Assembly (NCBI GenBank): GCA_945875545.1 | Contig: CAMCKZ010000011.1 | Location: forward strand, 1-53,711 | Source: Polyangium aurulentum | GTDB lineage: Bacteria; Myxococcota_A; Polyangia; Polyangiales; Polyangiaceae | Reading direction: 5' to 3' | DNA length: 53,711 nucleotides | Shown here: piece by piece, positions 44,424 through 53,409 of the stretch | Position numbering within the stretch: position 1 is the stretch's first letter | How the letters are laid out: every line of letters begins with the position of its first letter | Notes under the pieces: model-generated | The model's database searches: none | What the model saw: the letters and a program-made list of their open reading frames with translations, nothing else | What the model was told of the DNA's origin: nothing | Made by a program: the position numbers and the translations under genes

Positions 44424-44639
44424 CCGGCAAGGCTAGCGCCCTTCCGTCGGGGCATCGCGATCGATCCTTCCAGCCCTCGGCGAATCGATCATGGCGCGAC
44501 CGACGCACGTCATCGACACGCATGCGGAACCACGGCTTGACACCGCGTTTGCCTCGCATCTAGTTTCGCGGTGACCGACTGCTGGTGGCGCTGTCGTGCC
44601 AGTGCCAGGTCCGGTCGCCGTTTAGCCCAGCGAGACACC

Positions 44640-45119
44640 ATGCCTTTCCGCCTTTCAGACGAACGCGAGCGAGAACTCGACGTCATTCTCCGCCGCTACC
44701 CCACGCGCATCGCAGCGCTTATTCCCGCGCTTCATTTGATCCAAGATCAAGAAGGCTGGATCAGCGACGAAACCATCCACTGGATTTCGCAGCGCCTTGA
44801 TGTCGCGCCGGCCCACGTGAAAGGGGTCGTTACTTTCTACTCGCTGTTCAACCAAAAGCCCGTTGGCAAGCATCAGGTTTGGGTGTGCCGCACCCTGCCT
44901 TGTGCCCTGCGCGGAGCGGGCGATGTGCTTGCGCAATGCGAAAAGAAACTGGGCATTCACTCGGGTGAAACCACGGCCAACGGCCAGGTCACGTTGCGCA
45001 CCGCCGAGTGCCTCGCGAGCTGCGGAACAGCGCCCATGATGCAGATCAATAAAGAGTATCACGAGAACCTGACGTCCGAAAAAATCGACCGACTTTTGTC
45101 GAAACTCATGGAGTCCTAA
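44640..45119 (+). CDS. nuoE: NADH-quinone oxidoreductase subunit E
   Basis: 159 aa thioredoxin-like [2Fe-2S] subunit carrying cluster N1a. Cluster ligands CRTLPC and ECLASCG are visible, with ALHLIQDQEGWIS and VKGVVTFYSLF typical of NuoE. ATG 44640 gives the normal N-terminus; an upstream in-frame ATG adds Trp/Arg-rich sequence not seen in NuoE. First gene of the nuo run, 3 bp before nuoF. Confidence 0.95.
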   Translation: MPFRLSDERERELDVILRRYPTRIAALIPALHLIQDQEGWISDETIHWISQRLDVAPAHVKGVVTFYSLFNQKPVGKHQVWVCRTLPCALRGAGDVLAQCEKKLGIHSGETTANGQVTLRTAECLASCGTAPMMQINKEYHENLTSEKIDRLLSKLMES

Positions 45120-45122
45120 TCG

Positions 45123-46478
45123 ATGCTTCAACGTACGAGCTACCTCACCACGAATTACGATAAGCCCGAATGCTGGGCGCTATCGCTCTACGAATCGACG
45201 GGAGGTTATACGCAGGCGAAACGCGTTCTCACCTCGATGACAAAAGAGCAGGTGATCGACGAAGCCAAGAAGGCCAACGTTCGCGGGCGCGGCGGCGCAG
45301 GCTTCCCGATGGGGCTCAAATGGAGCTTCATGCGGCCCCACGCCACGAAGCCTTCGTACCTCGTGCTGAACGCCGACGAAGGCGAGCCCGGCACGCACAA
45401 AGACCGCACCATAATGGAGCTAAATCCGCATTCGGTGGTCGAGGGCTGCATCATCGCGTGCTTCGCCATTGGCGCACACGTGGCTTACATTTACGTTCGC
45501 GATGAGCTCCACCTTTCGAAGGCGCGCCTCTGGGGTGCCATCGAAGAGGCGAAGAAAAAGGGCTACATCGGCCTCGCTCCATTTGGCGTTGACTACGAGG
45601 TGCAAGTTCATGTGCACACGGGTGCGGGCGCCTACATTTGCGGCGAAGAAACAGCCCTCCTCAACAGCCTCGAAGGCAAGCGCGGCGAGCCTCGATTGAA
45701 GCCTCCGTTCCCCGCCCAGGTCGGCGCTTTCGGCTGCCCCACCACGGTCAATAATCTCGAAACCATCGCCATCGTTCCTACGGTCATGGCCCTTGGTGGT
45801 GAGGCGTTTTCCAAGCTTTCCGGTCTTCACGCGTTCAACGACGGCGGCGTTCGTCTCTATGGCGTCAACGGCCACGTGAAGACCCCCGGAGTCATCGAAC
45901 TGGCCTGCGGCCCCACGCTCAACGAACTCATTTTCGACGTCGGCGGCGGCGTGCTCGGCGACCGAAAAATCCTCTGCGCGATTCCCGGCGGTTCGAGCAC
46001 GCCGATCCTGCTGCCGAGCGAAACCATCAACGCCCCAGACCCCGCGCACCCGATGCACGCCTTCCACGGAAAGTCGGTTTTCGACGTTCCGCTCGGGGTC
46101 GACACCGCTCGCCACATGGGCACCATGCTCGGCACCTGCTGCGTGACGGTGCTCGCAGAAGGCACGTGCCCCGTGCTCGCCATGCACAACCTGATGCAAT
46201 TTTATCGGCACGAGAGTTGCGGCCAGTGCACGCCGTGCCGCGAGGGCGGCTCGTGGCTTTTGCGCACCGTTGACCGAATTCTTGACGGCCACGGAACGAT
46301 GGAAGATGTCAACAATCTTTCGGATATTGCCTCAAATATGATGGGCAATACGATCTGCGCATTCGGCGAAGGAACGGCGATGCCTGCCTTGGGCTTCATC
46401 GGAAAATTTCGCGAACACTTTGAGGCATATGTGCGCGGAGAACGCAGGCGGGCCGATGCGCGCTTGACCGTTGCCTAA
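45123..46478 (+). CDS. nuoF: NADH-quinone oxidoreductase subunit F
   Basis: 451 aa. NADH- and FMN-binding subunit where electrons enter complex I. RGRGGAGFPMGLKW (NADH loop), NADEGEPGTHKDR (FMN site) and the N3 [4Fe-4S] ligands in ESCGQCTPCREG plus NTICAFGEG are intact. GGAG lies 9 nt upstream of the ATG. Followed by nuoJ, not nuoG, so the usual E-F-G order is broken. Confidence 0.97.
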   Translation: MLQRTSYLTTNYDKPECWALSLYESTGGYTQAKRVLTSMTKEQVIDEAKKANVRGRGGAGFPMGLKWSFMRPHATKPSYLVLNADEGEPGTHKDRTIMELNPHSVVEGCIIACFAIGAHVAYIYVRDELHLSKARLWGAIEEAKKKGYIGLAPFGVDYEVQVHVHTGAGAYICGEETALLNSLEGKRGEPRLKPPFPAQVGAFGCPTTVNNLETIAIVPTVMALGGEAFSKLSGLHAFNDGGVRLYGVNGHVKTPGVIELACGPTLNELIFDVGGGVLGDRKILCAIPGGSSTPILLPSETINAPDPAHPMHAFHGKSVFDVPLGVDTARHMGTMLGTCCVTVLAEGTCPVLAMHNLMQFYRHESCGQCTPCREGGSWLLRTVDRILDGHGTMEDVNNLSDIASNMMGNTICAFGEGTAMPALGFIGKFREHFEAYVRGERRRADARLTVA

Positions 46479-46502
46479 GCGAGACGGCATAAGGCAACTG
46501 CG

Positions 46503-47078
46503 ATGACCATTGGCCAAGTCTATTTTTATCTCTGCGCGGCAGTGGCTCTTTTTGGAGCACTCGCGGCGGTGTGTGCAAAGAGTCCGGTGCGAGCAGCGCT
46601 GGGCCTCCTGATGATGGTCTTGGCCGTCGCAGGTTTGTACCTCTCCCTCGACGCGCAATTTCTCGCCGCAATCCAGCTCATTGTTTACGCGGGCGCGATC
46701 GTCGTGCTCTTCGTTTTCGTGCTGATGCTGCTCGGGCACACGCCGCTCGTGGGCGTCGGAGATGGGTCGCCTGCGGCGCGTATTTTGGGTGCCACGGGGT
46801 TCGGTGCCGTAGCGCTTGCCGCCATGATTCTCAGCGCGCGCAATGCCGAACCCACCAACTTTCCCGCGGCGCTGCCCGCAGGCTTCGGTTCCGTCGGCGA
46901 AATTGGTCGCCTGATGTTCACGCAAACGCTTGTTCCGTTTGAACTTTCGAGCGCGCTGCTGATGGTGGCCGTTGTCGGTGCCGTCGCCGTGAGCAAGGGC
47001 GAAAAACCCGTCATCGTCGCCGCCGCGTCCGTGCTGGCTCCGCCCGGTGCCGCGCCAAAACCAGGAGAATCCCAATGA
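46503..47078 (+). CDS. nuoJ: NADH-quinone oxidoreductase subunit J
   Basis: 191 aa, five membrane helices. [47 protein letters not shown] is the conserved NuoJ core with the pi-bulge helix region (quoted as scattered family phrases: [20 protein letters not shown]). Membrane-arm subunit. Stop overlaps nuoK start (ATGA). Confidence 0.95.
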
Positions 47079-47380
47079 TTCCCGTCGAGCATTACATCGC
47101 CCTCAGCTCGATCCTTTTCACCATCGGCGGCATCGGATTTCTCGCGCGCCGCAACATGATTCTGCTCCTCGTAAGCATTGAGGTCATGTTGAACGCCGTC
47201 AACCTCGCCCTCGTCGCGTTCAACCGAGCGCGCCCCGAAACGCATGCGGGCCAAATGTTGTCGTTCTTTCTCATCGCCGCAGAAGCCGCCGAGTTGGCCA
47301 TCGGTCTCGCGATCGTTCTCGCTGTGTACCGCCTCAAAAAAACCGTGCGCGTCGACGACGCCAACCTCCTCCGTCACTGA
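47075..47380 (+). CDS. nuoK: NADH-quinone oxidoreductase subunit K
   Basis: 101 aa, three helices, the usual NuoK length. The two conserved membrane Glu residues are present in [11 protein letters not shown] and [12 protein letters not shown]. Proton-pathway subunit of complex I. Confidence 0.96.
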
Positions 47381-47437
47381 CGCCCGGCCCCGCAGCCATC
47401 GCTCGGGCCACCACGCACCTTCCGGAACATCTGCCGC

Positions 47438-49966
47438 ATGCCAGCTCTCGAAAGCCTGTTCCCCAGAGACGAATTCGGCCTCCTTGGCCTTATTATCGCG
47501 CTCCCGCTCCTCGGTGCCATTGTCAATGGAATTTGGGGGCGACGCCTAGGCCGCTCCGCAGTTTCGGCGATGGCGCTCACGGTGATGGGCCTCGCGTTTG
47601 CCCTCTCGCTCGTCACCGTCTGCCACCTCCACAGCCTCTTCACCGAGTCGCTGCACGGCGGCGGGGGTGCAGGTCACGGGGAGCGCGTTCGCCTCGCCTG
47701 GACGGCCTGGGAGTGGTTCCACACCACGGGCGGGCGGTCCGGGGCCAACATCCCGATCGACTTGAAGTTCAGCGTCGATCAGTTGAGCGGCATCATGATG
47801 CTGGTCATCACGGGCATCGGCTTTCTGATCCACTTGTACAGCACCGCGTACATGGCCGAAGATGCCTCGTACGCTAGGTTTTTTGCCTACCTAAACCTCT
47901 TCATCACGGCGATGCTGGTGCTGGTCTTGGGCGACAACCTGGTGGTGCTCTTCATCGGCTGGGAGGGCGTCGGTCTGTGCAGCTACCTGCTCATCGGTTT
48001 TTGGTTCGGCAAGGCTGAAAATGCAGCGGCCGGCCGCAAGGCATTTCTCGCCAACCGCATCGGCGACTTCGGTCTCCTCATTGGCATGTTTTTGCTTGCA
48101 CAATACACGGGTGCCCTCGACTGGGACGGCATCGCGCGAAATGCTCACCTGCTGCTGTCGCCGTCCCCCGCCGCGCGCGTGCATGTGTGGCCCGTAGGTG
48201 GAGGAATTTACCAGGGAATGTGGGCCTTCCTGCAGCCCGCCAACGTCGTCACCATCTCCGGTGCCACGGCGGTTTCGCTGGCGCTGTTTTTGGGTTGCAC
48301 GGGCAAGAGCGCGCAGCTCCCGCTGTACGTTTGGCTTCCCGATGCGATGGCGGGGCCAACGCCCGTGTCGGCACTCATTCACGCGGCCACTATGGTGACA
48401 GCCGGCGTGTACCTCGTGTGCCGACTGAGTTTCGTCTTCGTGCTTTCGCCCTTCACCATGACCGTGATCGCCGTCGTCGGAGCGCTCACAGCTCTCTTCG
48501 CCGCCACGATCGCGCTCGTGCAAAACGACGTGAAAAAAGTGCTCGCTTACTCCACGGTAAGCCAGCTTGGTTTCATGTTTCTCGGCGTGGGCGTAGGCGC
48601 ATTTACGGCTGGTTTTTTCCACGTATTCACCCACGCCTTCTTCAAGGCTTGTCTCTTTCTTGGAGCGGGCAGTGTCATCCACTCGATGCACGCGCACATC
48701 CACGACGACGCCGCGAGCCAAGACATGCGCAACATGGGCGGGCTCCGCAAATACATGCCCGTCACGTTCGCGACCTTCGCGATCAGCACGCTGGCGATCA
48801 TAGGCACGCCTTTCACGAGCGGGTTCTTCTCGAAAGACGAGATCCTCTTCAAGGCGTTCACCAACCACGTCGTGCACCCCATGAAAGACAAGTTCGCTCA
48901 GCGCGGCCTTGGCGTCTGGGAGCAGCCTACGTGGGTAGGTCCGGCCCTTTACGTTGTTGGCGTGCTCGCCGCCACAATGACTGCATTCTACATGTGTCGC
49001 GCGCTCTACCTCACGTTCTTTGGCGACTTCAAAGGCTGGGCGATCGGTGAGCCGAGCGCAGCGAAAACCCACGCGGATCACGACCACGCGGATCATGGCC
49101 ACGGCCACGGCGGGCCCGCTCCCGCACCCCACGAATCGCCATGGCAAATGACCCTTCCTCTCGTGGTGCTCGCTTTCGGCGCGCTCTTCGGAGGGTGGCT
49201 CAACGCGGCACCTCTGCACATCGAGCCCCTCGGGCACTGGCTTGATCCAGTCTTCGCGCAGGCTGTTTCGCAGGGCGTTCAAATCGTTGGCGGCGAAGAG
49301 CACGCACACCACCTCGTGTGGCCGCTGGCGGCAGGCGGCGTTGCAGCGTTCGCAATTGGTTCGGCCATCGCCTACTGGATGTATATTGCAAGCAACGGGG
49401 CGCCCGCAAAGGCTCTCGCGGAACGCAACAAAAAGCTGCACCAGCTGGCGCTCGAAAAGTGGCGTGTCGACGAGTTCTACGGGGTCGCGGTCGTGGGCGT
49501 TGCGGAGGCCACTGCTGAAACGTGTGCGGCGATCGATCACGGCATCGTCGACGGCCTTTTCGCCAAGGCAACTTCGTCGGTGGTGGCGGCGGCGGGCTTC
49601 GTTCTGCGGGCCCTGCACACAGGTATTTTCCACGCTTACAGCGCCGCGATGGTGGTCGGATTGGCGGGCTTCGGTTGGTTCTTCATCGCCCCCCACGCGG
49701 AGGCCTCGGTGAACCAAGCGGGCGGCTCGTATGCCATTCATGCGGCCCCGGGCATGGGCTATTCCTTCCGCTGGGATGCGGACGGCGATGGCAAATTCGA
49801 CAGCGAACGTTTTGGCCCCACGCGAGACCTCAGCGTCAGCGTCGAGCCAGGCAAAACCAAGCAGGTCCGCCTTGAAGTCAAGAACGCCTTCGGCCTCACG
49901 GGATCGACCACGATCACGCTGGGCACCGAAGCCAAGAAGGGCGCGGCCGTTGTCGGTCTTCGCTGA
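47438..49966 (+). CDS. nuoL: NADH-quinone oxidoreductase subunit L with C-terminal extension
   Basis: 842 aa; typical NuoL is about 610-700. The antiporter-like core is normal (GWEGVGLCSYLLIGFW, GKSAQLPLYVWLPDAMAGPTPVSALIHAATMV, FTHAFFKACLFLGAGSV given as separate landmarks). A His/Asp-rich loop lies at about 544-560. After the lateral helix and last transmembrane helix a soluble domain (about 755-842) with FRWDADGDGKFD and VSVEPGKTKQVRLEVKN looks like a PKD/Ig-like beta-sandwich. Such a domain is unusual in NuoL. Distal proton-pumping subunit. Confidence 0.95.
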   Translation: MPALESLFPRDEFGLLGLIIALPLLGAIVNGIWGRRLGRSAVSAMALTVMGLAFALSLVTVCHLHSLFTESLHGGGGAGHGERVRLAWTAWEWFHTTGGRSGANIPIDLKFSVDQLSGIMMLVITGIGFLIHLYSTAYMAEDASYARFFAYLNLFITAMLVLVLGDNLVVLFIGWEGVGLCSYLLIGFWFGKAENAAAGRKAFLANRIGDFGLLIGMFLLAQYTGALDWDGIARNAHLLLSPSPAARVHVWPVGGGIYQGMWAFLQPANVVTISGATAVSLALFLGCTGKSAQLPLYVWLPDAMAGPTPVSALIHAATMVTAGVYLVCRLSFVFVLSPFTMTVIAVVGALTALFAATIALVQNDVKKVLAYSTVSQLGFMFLGVGVGAFTAGFFHVFTHAFFKACLFLGAGSVIHSMHAHIHDDAASQDMRNMGGLRKYMPVTFATFAISTLAIIGTPFTSGFFSKDEILFKAFTNHVVHPMKDKFAQRGLGVWEQPTWVGPALYVVGVLAATMTAFYMCRALYLTFFGDFKGWAIGEPSAAKTHADHDHADHGHGHGGPAPAPHESPWQMTLPLVVLAFGALFGGWLNAAPLHIEPLGHWLDPVFAQAVSQGVQIVGGEEHAHHLVWPLAAGGVAAFAIGSAIAYWMYIASNGAPAKALAERNKKLHQLALEKWRVDEFYGVAVVGVAEATAETCAAIDHGIVDGLFAKATSSVVAAAGFVLRALHTGIFHAYSAAMVVGLAGFGWFFIAPHAEASVNQAGGSYAIHAAPGMGYSFRWDADGDGKFDSERFGPTRDLSVSVEPGKTKQVRLEVKNAFGLTGSTTITLGTEAKKGAAVVGLR

Positions 49967-49990
49967 ACGAAAGAACGAGACGACCTCACC

Positions 49991-51937
49991 ATGAGCGCCC
50001 ACGCCCATACGAGTGACGAAACCGCCGGCGATGTCACGGCGCGCCCCGGCGCGTTCGTTGTCGGCATCCACGAGATTGCCACCACTGCGCTTGCCGTCGT
50101 GGCCATCGCCCTCCTCGGGCACTACGCGGATTCCGCGTGGATTCCCGCAGGAATCGCTGCCATGCTGGCCTTCGCCGCGGTCCACGCCTTCGACCGCCAG
50201 ACGCGCCTCACGGTCGGCGCGATGGGCGGCTTGGCGGCGCTCTTCGTCGTCAAGATGTGGCCAACGGCTCATGCTTTGGCCGCCGGTGAGCCCTTTGTGG
50301 AGTCGCCCACCGTGCTGTCGTGGCTCGTGGCATTGCCCTTGGGCGGAGCCGTTCTGATGCTCTTCATGCCGCGCCAAGCGCACGGTCTTTTGAAGAATCT
50401 GACCCTCGCCATCATGGGGCTCACGTTTGCCGCGAGCCTGCCACTCCTCAGCGCCACGATGGGCGCCGGGTACCACTTCGACCAGAACGTGGCCTGGGTT
50501 CCGCAGTTCGGAATTCGTTACCACGTGGCGATAGACGGCGTGAGCTTGTGGCTCGTCCTCCTCACAACGTTCTCCGTGCCCCTCGCAACCTATGTGTCCT
50601 ACGGCTCGATCAAGCATCGCTTGAAAGACTGGGTCTTTTCGCTGCTCCTGCTCGAAGCCGGAATGATCGGGGCGTTTATCTCCTTCGATTTGTTCTTGTT
50701 TTACGTGTTCTGGGAACTGATGCTCGTCCCGATGTACGTCATCATTGGCGTATGGGGCGGCCAAGATCGCATTCGTGCGGCGATCAAATTCTTCCTCTAC
50801 ACCATGTTCGGCTCGGTGCTCATGCTCGCAGCCATACTCTACATGGCGTATGCGTATGGGCAGGTAGCCGGTGTCCCGTCGTTCGATTACTTTGAGCTGC
50901 AGCGTCTCGTCCTCCCGCGCAGCACCCAGGTATGGCTGTGGGCTGCTTTTGCGCTCTCGTTTCTCATCAAGGTTCCCATGTGGCCGTTCCATACATGGCT
51001 ACCCGATGCCCACACCGAGGCCCCCACGGCCGGCTCGATGATCCTCGCGGCGGTGATGCTCAAGCTCGGCACTTACGGGTACATGCGTTTTTGCCTCGGG
51101 CTCTTTCCCGAAGCTTCCATTGAGTGGGGCATCAATCTCGCGGCCGTGGCTGTATGCGGCGGCATCTTGTACGCGGCATTGTGCGCCTGGCAACAGACCG
51201 ACTTGAAGCGACTCGTCGCGTATTCGTCTGTGGCGCACCTGGGTTACGTGATGCTCGGCACGTTTTCCATGACGCCTTCTGGGCTTGAAGGCGCGGTCCT
51301 TCAGATGGTGAATCACGGCATGTCGACCGGGGCGCTCTTTCTCCTCGTCGGCGTTCTCTACGACCGCCGTCATACGCGGGAGCTCGCAGACTTCGGCGGC
51401 ATCGCAAGCAAAATGCCCATCTACGCCACGATGTTCGTCATCGCCACGATGGCCAGCGTGGGCCTCCCAGGCACCAACGGTTTCATCGGCGAGTTCATGG
51501 TCATCACCGGCACGAACGCAAGCCTTCGCCTCGGCCATTTTGCTGGAATTCAAGCCATTGGCGCGGCCCTTGGTGTCGTTCTAGGTGCACTCTACATGCT
51601 TACTGCGGTGCAAAAAGTTTTCTTAGGCCCCGTCACCAAGAAGGAAAACGAGGGTCTCGCCGACATGAACAGCCGCGAGATCATCGGCATCGCTCCGATG
51701 ATCGCCATGATTTTTGTCGTCGGTCTCGCGCCCAACCTCCTGCTCCAGTCCATCTCGGGTGCCACCACACGAATCATTCGCGATGTCAACGAGCGAATTG
51801 ATGCCAGCCCGCCTCCCGAGTTCCACCGCGGCGAGCCCAAACTCTTGAACCGGCGTCCGGAGGCGCCAGTTCTGCCGGTTGCTCCGGTGGGTACTGGCAC
51901 GCCTGGCGCACCCGTCCGAGCGGAGATTCGCGGATGA
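49991..51937 (+). CDS. nuoM: NADH-quinone oxidoreductase subunit M with N-terminal extension
   Basis: 648 aa; typical NuoM is about 500. Residues 1-105 add a His-containing start and three hydrophobic helices before the usual LSWLVALPLGGAVLM. The core is standard: DGVSLWLVLLTTF, FYVFWELMLVPMY, WPFHTWLPDAHTEAPT, AYSSVAHLGYVMLG. A Pro-rich tail of about 45 residues follows. Stop overlaps nuoN (ATGA). Confidence 0.95.
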   Translation: MSAHAHTSDETAGDVTARPGAFVVGIHEIATTALAVVAIALLGHYADSAWIPAGIAAMLAFAAVHAFDRQTRLTVGAMGGLAALFVVKMWPTAHALAAGEPFVESPTVLSWLVALPLGGAVLMLFMPRQAHGLLKNLTLAIMGLTFAASLPLLSATMGAGYHFDQNVAWVPQFGIRYHVAIDGVSLWLVLLTTFSVPLATYVSYGSIKHRLKDWVFSLLLLEAGMIGAFISFDLFLFYVFWELMLVPMYVIIGVWGGQDRIRAAIKFFLYTMFGSVLMLAAILYMAYAYGQVAGVPSFDYFELQRLVLPRSTQVWLWAAFALSFLIKVPMWPFHTWLPDAHTEAPTAGSMILAAVMLKLGTYGYMRFCLGLFPEASIEWGINLAAVAVCGGILYAALCAWQQTDLKRLVAYSSVAHLGYVMLGTFSMTPSGLEGAVLQMVNHGMSTGALFLLVGVLYDRRHTRELADFGGIASKMPIYATMFVIATMASVGLPGTNGFIGEFMVITGTNASLRLGHFAGIQAIGAALGVVLGALYMLTAVQKVFLGPVTKKENEGLADMNSREIIGIAPMIAMIFVVGLAPNLLLQSISGATTRIIRDVNERIDASPPPEFHRGEPKLLNRRPEAPVLPVAPVGTGTPGAPVRAEIRG

Positions 51938-53409
51938 TGCCATCTATTCTTGCTCTGATGCCGATGTTGGTCATCGGCTTTGGGGCTCTCGCGCTCATGC
52001 TCGCCGAGGTTCTAACCGACGCCAAAACAGGCCTTGCCGTCGGCACCGCCGTCGTGCTTTTCACGGCTGCGGCGTTCGCCTGCGCCGGGTGGATGGTGGG
52101 CCCTGAAAATCTGGGAGACGCCGCGGTTTTCGCGCCGTGGCTCGTGTTCGATAGGTTCACGCTCTTCTTCGAGGTTTTGCTCGCGCTTTCTGGTGCGCTC
52201 GCGGCTCTCGTGGCCGGGGGTTACCTTCGCGAGCACGGCATCGATCGCGGCGAGTTCTACGCGATTCTGAGCTTTTCCACGCTCGGCGCCATGATGTTGG
52301 CCGCCGCCGGAGACGTGCTGATGCTTTTTGTGGGCCTCGAAACCATGTCCATCGGCGCGTACGCCCTCGCGGGTTTTCGTCGCGGGTCACCAAAATCGGC
52401 GGAGGGTGCGCTTAAGTATTTTCTCCTCGGCAGCTTTGCTGCGGCGCTCATGATGTTTGGTTTTGCGCTCCTTTACGGGGCCACCGGTCATACCGATTTG
52501 GCGGGGCTGCACAACGCCTTGGCCTCCGAAAGTTTGCGCTCCCCGAGCATCGTGATCGCTTTGGCTCTCGTTCTCGCGGGCCTCGCGTTCAAGGTCAGTG
52601 CCGTGCCGTTCCACATGTGGACCCCGGACGCCTACGAGGGCGCGCCCACACCCGCGACCGCGTTCATGGCGGCCTCGGTCAAAGCTGGCGGTTTCGCGGT
52701 GCTTCTTCGGGTGCTGCTCACGGTTTTCGGCGACGAACGATCCGCCTCGTGGGCAACGGGGTGGCCGCCGGTGGTGGCGCTTCTCGCGGTCCTCACCATG
52801 ACGGTGGCCAATCTTGTTGCCGGTCGCCAAGAAAGCATCAAGCGGATGCTGGCGTACTCAAGCATCGCTCATGCTGGGTATTTGCTGGTGGGCGTAGTGG
52901 CTGCGATCCGCGCTCCGGCGCAAGCCCAGTCGGCGGTTCTCTTTTACCTTGCCACGTACAGCGTTTCGACCATCGGCGCCTTTGCGGCCCTCGTTCTATG
53001 CGGCAGCCGTGGTGCCGAGGTGGTGTCGTACGAAGACCTCGCGGGGCTCGGGCGGCGGCATCCGGCCGTGGCGTTGCCCTTCGCATTCTTCATACTTTCC
53101 CTTGCTGGAATGCCGCCAATGGCGGGCTTCTTTGGCAAGTGGTTTGTCTTCAAGGCGGCGATGGATGCGGGGCTTCATGGCCTCACGGTCATCGCGTTTA
53201 TTAACAGCGTCATAGCCGCGTATTACTACCTCAAGGTATTCGTATTTCTGTATATGCGCGAGCCGGCGGCCGGCGCGCCGATTGCGAAGCCGATGTGGAG
53301 CGGCGAGGTCGTGACGGCCATTGCCCTCTGTGCGTTTTTTGTCTTGCTTCTTGGCCTGGCACCCGGGGCCGTTTTGGATGCGGCCCTGGCTGTAGGCGGG
53401 GCCGGTTAA
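51934..53409 (+). CDS. nuoN: NADH-quinone oxidoreductase subunit N
   Basis: 491 aa, about 14 helices. VGLETMSIGAYALAGF, KYFLLGSFAAALMMFG, VPFHMWTPDAYEGAPTP and AYSSIAHAGYLLVG are NuoN signatures. Last nuo gene here; the next feature is a tRNA about 95 bp on. Confidence 0.96.
   Translation: MMPSILALMPMLVIGFGALALMLAEVLTDAKTGLAVGTAVVLFTAAAFACAGWMVGPENLGDAAVFAPWLVFDRFTLFFEVLLALSGALAALVAGGYLREHGIDRGEFYAILSFSTLGAMMLAAAGDVLMLFVGLETMSIGAYALAGFRRGSPKSAEGALKYFLLGSFAAALMMFGFALLYGATGHTDLAGLHNALASESLRSPSIVIALALVLAGLAFKVSAVPFHMWTPDAYEGAPTPATAFMAASVKAGGFAVLLRVLLTVFGDERSASWATGWPPVVALLAVLTMTVANLVAGRQESIKRMLAYSSIAHAGYLLVGVVAAIRAPAQAQSAVLFYLATYSVSTIGAFAALVLCGSRGAEVVSYEDLAGLGRRHPAVALPFAFFILSLAGMPPMAGFFGKWFVFKAAMDAGLHGLTVIAFINSVIAAYYYLKVFVFLYMREPAAGAPIAKPMWSGEVVTAIALCAFFVLLLGLAPGAVLDAALAVGGAG

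Follow-up and report, generated by a model that had tools for sequence, protein, structure and literature searches.

A PKD-like domain fused behind the last transmembrane helix of NuoL in the complex I of Polyangia

Results

An unbroken nuoL frame with a C-terminal extension

The window (the whole stretch of DNA analysed here, 53,711 nucleotides) carries the cluster nuoE-F-J-K-L-M-N at 44571-53409, in which nuoL sits between nuoK and nuoM (Pfam; Table 1); the NuoH and NuoD families are found on another contig of the same genome (C113), and its nuo genes are therefore split. The NuoL protein matches both Proton_antipo_M (PF00361; 267.6 bits, E = 1.6e-79) and Proton_antipo_N (PF00662; 66.7 bits, E = 1.7e-18) above the Pfam cut-offs, the latter being the single Proton_antipo_N match in the genome (G000). 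Among solved structures, 44 distinct sequences match it at E <= 1e-20, most of them NuoL/ND5, and a fold search also retrieves NuoL chains. Like NuoL, Nqo12 and ND5, it has an antiporter-like core followed by a lateral helix and then TM16, these last two being modelled with modest pLDDT. It differs in going on past TM16 into a folded domain of 91 residues; in other classes of the phylum, NuoL stops 0-30 residues past TM16 (among the matches listed). The alignment to the C-terminus of chain 6hum_F stops at residue 749, and the E. coli NuoL is reported to have 613 aa (PMC8357420).

Table 1. Positions of NuoL and its parts in the window.
Feature	Position	Strand	Basis
nuoL, 842 aa, stop codon included in the span	47438..49966	+	ORF and Pfam
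His-rich loop of NuoL, residues 544-560	49067..49117	+	alignments; pLDDT <50 for 541-556
Long amphipathic (lateral/HL) helix of NuoL, residues 675-726	49460..49615	+	AlphaFold2 model, pLDDT about 54-77
TM16 (last transmembrane helix), residues 731-750	49628..49687	+	model, pLDDT about 54-69; alignment to 6hum_F
PKD-like C-terminal tail, residues 752-842 (91 residues)	49691..49963	+	
Six strands of the tail, residues 755-829	49700-49924	+	AlphaFold2 model
Acidic loop (DADGDGKFD) in the PKD-like tail, residues 780-788, possible Ca2+ site	49775..49801	+	

The frame runs from TM16 into the tail without a stop. A first-pass annotation, made from the DNA letters alone, had proposed that a PKD/Ig-like domain begins at 49690 in the NuoL frame and had quoted FRWDADGDGKFD and VRLEVKNAFG from it; both peptides are found in the tail and the shared frame holds, but the position given is one base out of frame (49691). 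No repeats were found around the tail. The same annotation had singled out a His-rich loop at about residues 544-560, which exists but is no special feature: at least four His occur there in 29/37 aligned NuoLs, similar loops are seen in the alignments to chains 6hum_F and 8qby_L, and the loop is a common NuoL trait.

Assignment of the tail to the PKD type

Taken alone, the window tail reaches only 15.2 bits against PF00801 (E = 0.021), under the curated cut-off of 23.5, and PKD is matched by 7/30 relatives' tails (best E = 2.6e-4; Pfam). We collected the tails of 17 of the 22 class siblings read (alignment A5), leaving out L103 and the four rows of family f16 (L104, L108, L110 and L114), which have no clear PKD signature; 13/17 of these tails match PF18911 and 13/17 match PF00801 (best E = 4.6e-14), and the tail of sibling L101 exceeds both cut-offs (PF18911, 52.7 vs. 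27 bits; PF00801, 42.9 vs. 23.5 bits). The A5 profile matches ColH and other PKD chains (best E = 3.4e-12), and it is matched in turn by the profile of order tails (A2) with E = 2.9e-10 and a probability of 96.8% (hhalign). The A2 profile itself gave no significant match against the PDB (best E = 0.1).

The first-pass annotation had suggested a structure prediction, and we obtained two AlphaFold2 models. That of the whole NuoL, built with 36 named relatives, yields the long helix, TM16 and the six strands at the residues given in Table 1, with pLDDT of ~76-85 over residues 751-830 and of only ~54-77 in the long helix and in TM16. That of the tail only, built from 30 sequences (the long-insert rows L063 and L066-L071 being excluded from the 36), is all-beta with the same six strands and a mean pLDDT of 87. 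A Foldseek search with the tail model returned first the PKD chain 6aem_A (E = 2.2e-3, 28% identity) and second another PKD chain, 4l9d_A (E = 8.3e-3), no match falling under 0.001; 6aem and 4l9d are PKD domains (PKD1) of Vibrio proteases. In VIA-align the tail scored Z = 7.5 to the PKD chain 4l9d_B, tied with an FN3-like receptor and other Ig-like folds, so structure alone gives an Ig-like sandwich, and it is the sequence bridge through the siblings' Pfam matches, the A5 profile and hhalign that decides the PKD assignment. Together the Pfam matches of sibling tails, hhalign, the model and Foldseek bear out the domain that had been proposed after the last NuoL helix, and they support the view that the tail is a PKD-type beta-sandwich.

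Like known PKD domains (PF00801/PF18911; Vibrio 6aem and 4l9d; the collagenase PKD), the tail is modelled as a beta-sandwich and has a W-D-x-D-G-D-G region; unlike them, it occurs once, and on a respiratory proton pump rather than a secreted enzyme, and it bears a PGxGYxYxW patch, which is conserved as PGxGYx[YF]xW in 37/37 rows of the NuoL alignment A4. The acidic loop is kept only in part, a loose DxDGDG-like pattern occurring in 32/37 rows of A4 and a stricter one in 18/30 rows of A2, which makes obligatory Ca2+ binding unlikely as judged from these residues. We also considered, and rejected, an EF-hand reading: the four PDB matches of the single tail (two polcalcins, E = 0.48 and 0.74, ribosomal protein L4 and calcineurin B) are at chance level only, and the model is all-beta.

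Distribution of the tail

Two peptide patterns, run against 84,980 species, returned 65 stretches, 40 of them coding for relatives, whose records carry Myxococcota labels or are labelled 'Deltaproteobacteria' (4) or 'Pseudomonadota' (1). The named relatives include Polyangiaceae, Sandaracinaceae and others, mostly Myxococcota, and from them we read the order as Polyangiales and the class as Polyangia, a large group of bacteria from soil and water, related to the myxobacteria.

A search with the single tail matched 51/59 relatives, with tail identities of 76% and 73% in the two genomes of the same genus. Within the window's own family 36/37 genomes matched, one of them (G011) doubtfully; its match, in a 1524-aa frame with 30% identity, was discarded as a NuoL. 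The tail profile A2 matched 54/237 genomes of the phylum and 49/55 of the order, and these matches across the order led us to reject the possibility that the tail is unique to the window's genus. For three of the 49 order matches (G018, G256 and G051) the frame is short, 130-300 aa, and these we take to be contig fragments. In the five matches outside the order, whose frames have 666-1934 aa, no more than the second part of the domain is aligned, and we therefore read them as unrelated PKD proteins. Of the six order genomes missed by the profile, five (G027, G041, G055, G263 and G047) encode a NuoL whose diverged extension runs 101-217 aa past TM16, with a GYxYxW-type motif in four and YSYEW in the other (G027); the sixth, G045, showed nothing beyond a weak match, in a frame of 556 aa. 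No frameshift or stop separating the tail from NuoL was found inside any tail match, whether in the 59 relatives or in the 237 phylum genomes; in one record (L005/L036) the frame is broken within NuoL, at a point far upstream of the tail.

The NuoL loci of the class and of the phylum were the best listed per search, of 49 and 52 rows. Among these, 22/22 class siblings (L100-L121) extend 59-151 aa past TM16 and are mostly PKD-like, vs. 0/18 NuoLs of other phylum classes (L125-L142) with more than 30 aa past TM16. The second NuoL copies found in the window's own family (L079, L081 and L085) end 1-3 residues past TM16 in 3/3 cases.

The length of the tail in A4 spans 88-287 aa. In some families of the order (L075, L082-L084 and L096-L099) the PKD-like tail has a long insert, reaching 188-210 aa past TM16, and finishes in a similar VxVxNxFGN strand. 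The four class siblings of family f16 have an extension of 59-84 aa, partly proline-rich, with no visible PKD signature.

Origin of the tail and selection on it

To place the tail on a phylogeny we built a tree of the NuoL core from 63 rows with the tail columns removed, having dropped L086 and L087 as Mrp-type, L088-L092 and L095 as duplicates and L080 as lying at a contig edge. Presence of the tail requires three changes on this tree vs. 17.7 in shuffles, and two once the long-branch rows L077, L078, L085 and L141 are excluded; an AU test on this reduced set did not reject one clade for all tailed NuoLs (p-AU = 0.489). Most simply read, the tail was gained once, at the base of the class, and diverged afterwards. 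Two separate gains, a less simple reading, could also account for a quick tree that splits the tailed rows into two groups and a long-branch pair, but the topology test just given does not demand them.

Comparisons of the window with two relatives, and of these with each other, gave dN/dS in the tail of 0.265 (window vs. L032), 0.327 (window vs. L033) and 0.267 (L032 vs. L033), as against 0.097, 0.115 and 0.100, respectively, over residues 1-720. The tail is under purifying selection, weaker than that on the NuoL core. Given same-genus identities of 73-76%, dN/dS of 0.27-0.33 and matches in 49/55 order genomes, the tail is not a product of chance, and we reject a frame error or readthrough, since the frames of relatives are unbroken and dN/dS is constrained.

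These data also bear on whether a PKD domain could have been captured by fusion and then retained by drift or weak stabilisation, with no strong function. Such a lineage-specific accretion would sit well with a tail that evolves faster than the core, varies greatly in length and has no visible PKD signature in some siblings; we nevertheless consider it improbable, given the purifying selection on the tail and an extension that, on the tree, is kept in 20/20 order rows with a main NuoL and in 22/22 class-sibling rows. We regard the NuoL-PKD fusion as real, conserved, selected and moderately surprising, and the mechanism that we propose for it below is one that we infer.

Discussion

Predicted position of the tail

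In E. coli NuoL the long helix is reported to lie on the N-side, in the cytoplasm (PMC3274701), so with the helix order of our model the chain would emerge from TM16 into the periplasm. TMH4 of ND6 (NuoJ) is described, for Paracoccus as for other bacteria, as lying towards ND5-TMH16, and the arm as stabilised by periplasmic beta-hairpins, NDUFA8 and NDUFS5 being absent (PMC11522691). From this topology of homologues we expect the tail to lie under NuoJ/K/N, on the periplasmic face of the assembled complex I. The knob pictured in the first-pass annotation was placed in the periplasm, in agreement with this predicted topology, and at the distal end of complex I, a site that we rejected on the published topology (PMC3274701).

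A possible periplasmic clamp on TM16

We reasoned that the tail could clamp TM16 from the periplasm, as a built-in part of NuoL, and so stabilise the membrane arm, which is our best explanation and one to which we give an even chance. A single PKD beta-sandwich, fused right behind TM16, would have been gained in the ancestry of Polyangia and retained in their main complex I; there it would pack on the periplasmic loops and beta-hairpins of its neighbours and clamp the TM16 end of the lateral helix. The tail would then act as a built-in accessory subunit that steadies the membrane arm and may in addition shield the arm on its periplasmic side, in a role that may parallel that of the mitochondrial accessory subunits on the intermembrane-space side.

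Published work draws attention to this part of the enzyme. Weak or no density is reported for ND5-HL, TMH16 and NDUFA11 in some maps, something that the authors connect with early dissociation (PMC10036122); in eukaryotes NDUFA11 is described as binding at the corner of ND5 TMH16, where the Yarrowia ND5 has an extra TMH17, and NDUFS5 as spanning the P-side of ND6, ND4L and ND2 (PMC8762328). E. coli strains with a truncated NuoL, including one with TMH16 deleted, are reported to grow very slowly on malate (PMC3274701). A clamp acting in cis most simply explains the tail in view of the labile TMH16 and lateral helix, the site used by accessory subunits and the growth of the E. coli truncations. 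Shielding would be a second possible benefit, following the argument of a 2023 review that the periplasmic side, the NuoL exit excepted, needs shielding from solvent (PMC10212512). A rigid, tightly constrained contact is disfavoured by the faster evolution of the tail, its lengths of 88-287 aa and the four f16 siblings without a PKD signature.

The same E. coli phenotype could be read in another way. TM16 is the last helix and an isolated one, and a domain that folds in the periplasm after insertion of TM16 would make that insertion irreversible; the tail might thus fix the topology of TM16 or the assembly of NuoL and have a minor role in the mature enzyme. We think this assembly handle unlikely, however, as the NuoLs of other classes insert TM16 with no tail at all.

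The main rival to the clamp is a docking module, in which the PKD tail would link complex I to a periplasmic partner, the candidates being complex III or alternative complex III, cytochrome c, an oxidase or the cell wall, through contact with protein or glycan. PKD domains are mainly extracellular interaction modules, the conserved PGxGYx[YF]xW patch could be a binding face, and the second complex I of the family has an N-terminal, probably periplasmic, extension on NuoM (described below). However, the patch is equally explicable as the core of the fold, and we hold docking to be possible but rather doubtful.

Comparison with accessory subunits and extensions of NuoM

Few membrane proteins are as conserved as the core subunits of complex I, whose bacterial forms are regarded as minimal. 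A selected, class-wide PKD domain at the periplasmic end of TM16 would mean that bacteria too add mass in the labile region where eukaryotes place accessory subunits. The likeness would be to NDUFA11, the Yarrowia TMH17 and NDUFS5/NDUFA8, in which mass is added near the end of TMH16 or on the P-side of ND2, ND4L and ND6 (PMC8762328). Unlike NDUFA11, NDUFS5 and NDUFA8, which are helical or CX9C proteins, the tail is a covalent PKD domain. We know of no sequence relation between it and these three subunits. We found no report of a NuoL-PKD fusion in the open-licence literature, and the main text of a 2025 genome survey of complex I does not contain 'PKD', 'extension' or 'Myxococc' (PMC12361115).

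A second extension came to light in the family's other complex I. Next after the tail-less second NuoL of G020 comes a NuoM (L143:13669-15933; 754 aa) with ~195 extra N-terminal residues, also seen in L144-L156. By eye these first 195 residues comprise a signal-like segment and a beta-rich stretch that is possibly Ig-like; Pfam gives only sub-threshold Ig-like and DUF4232 matches. The stretch was matched in 41/144 order genomes and is in frame with the NuoM core in 12/12 of the loci opened among these 41 matches; no match to it was found in the window's genome or in its congener G002. We tentatively suggest that the complex I of Polyangia may carry covalent periplasmic beta-sandwich modules of its own in place of the mitochondrial intermembrane-space subunits, a step that would have been taken twice in Polyangiaceae, as a PKD domain at the C-terminus of NuoL in the main enzyme and as a different, beta-rich domain, headed by a signal peptide, at the N-terminus of the second-complex NuoM, and that such modules may clamp the arm or dock complex I to partners in the periplasm. 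If the fold of the NuoM stretch is confirmed, both complex I forms of the family would have gained a periplasmic module, on different subunits.

The NuoM of the window itself (49991-51937, 648 aa) has ~105 extra N-terminal residues of another kind, which resemble two or three added hydrophobic helices. This type of extension, which was not seen in the class siblings and other classes read, is also present in several genomes of the window's own family.
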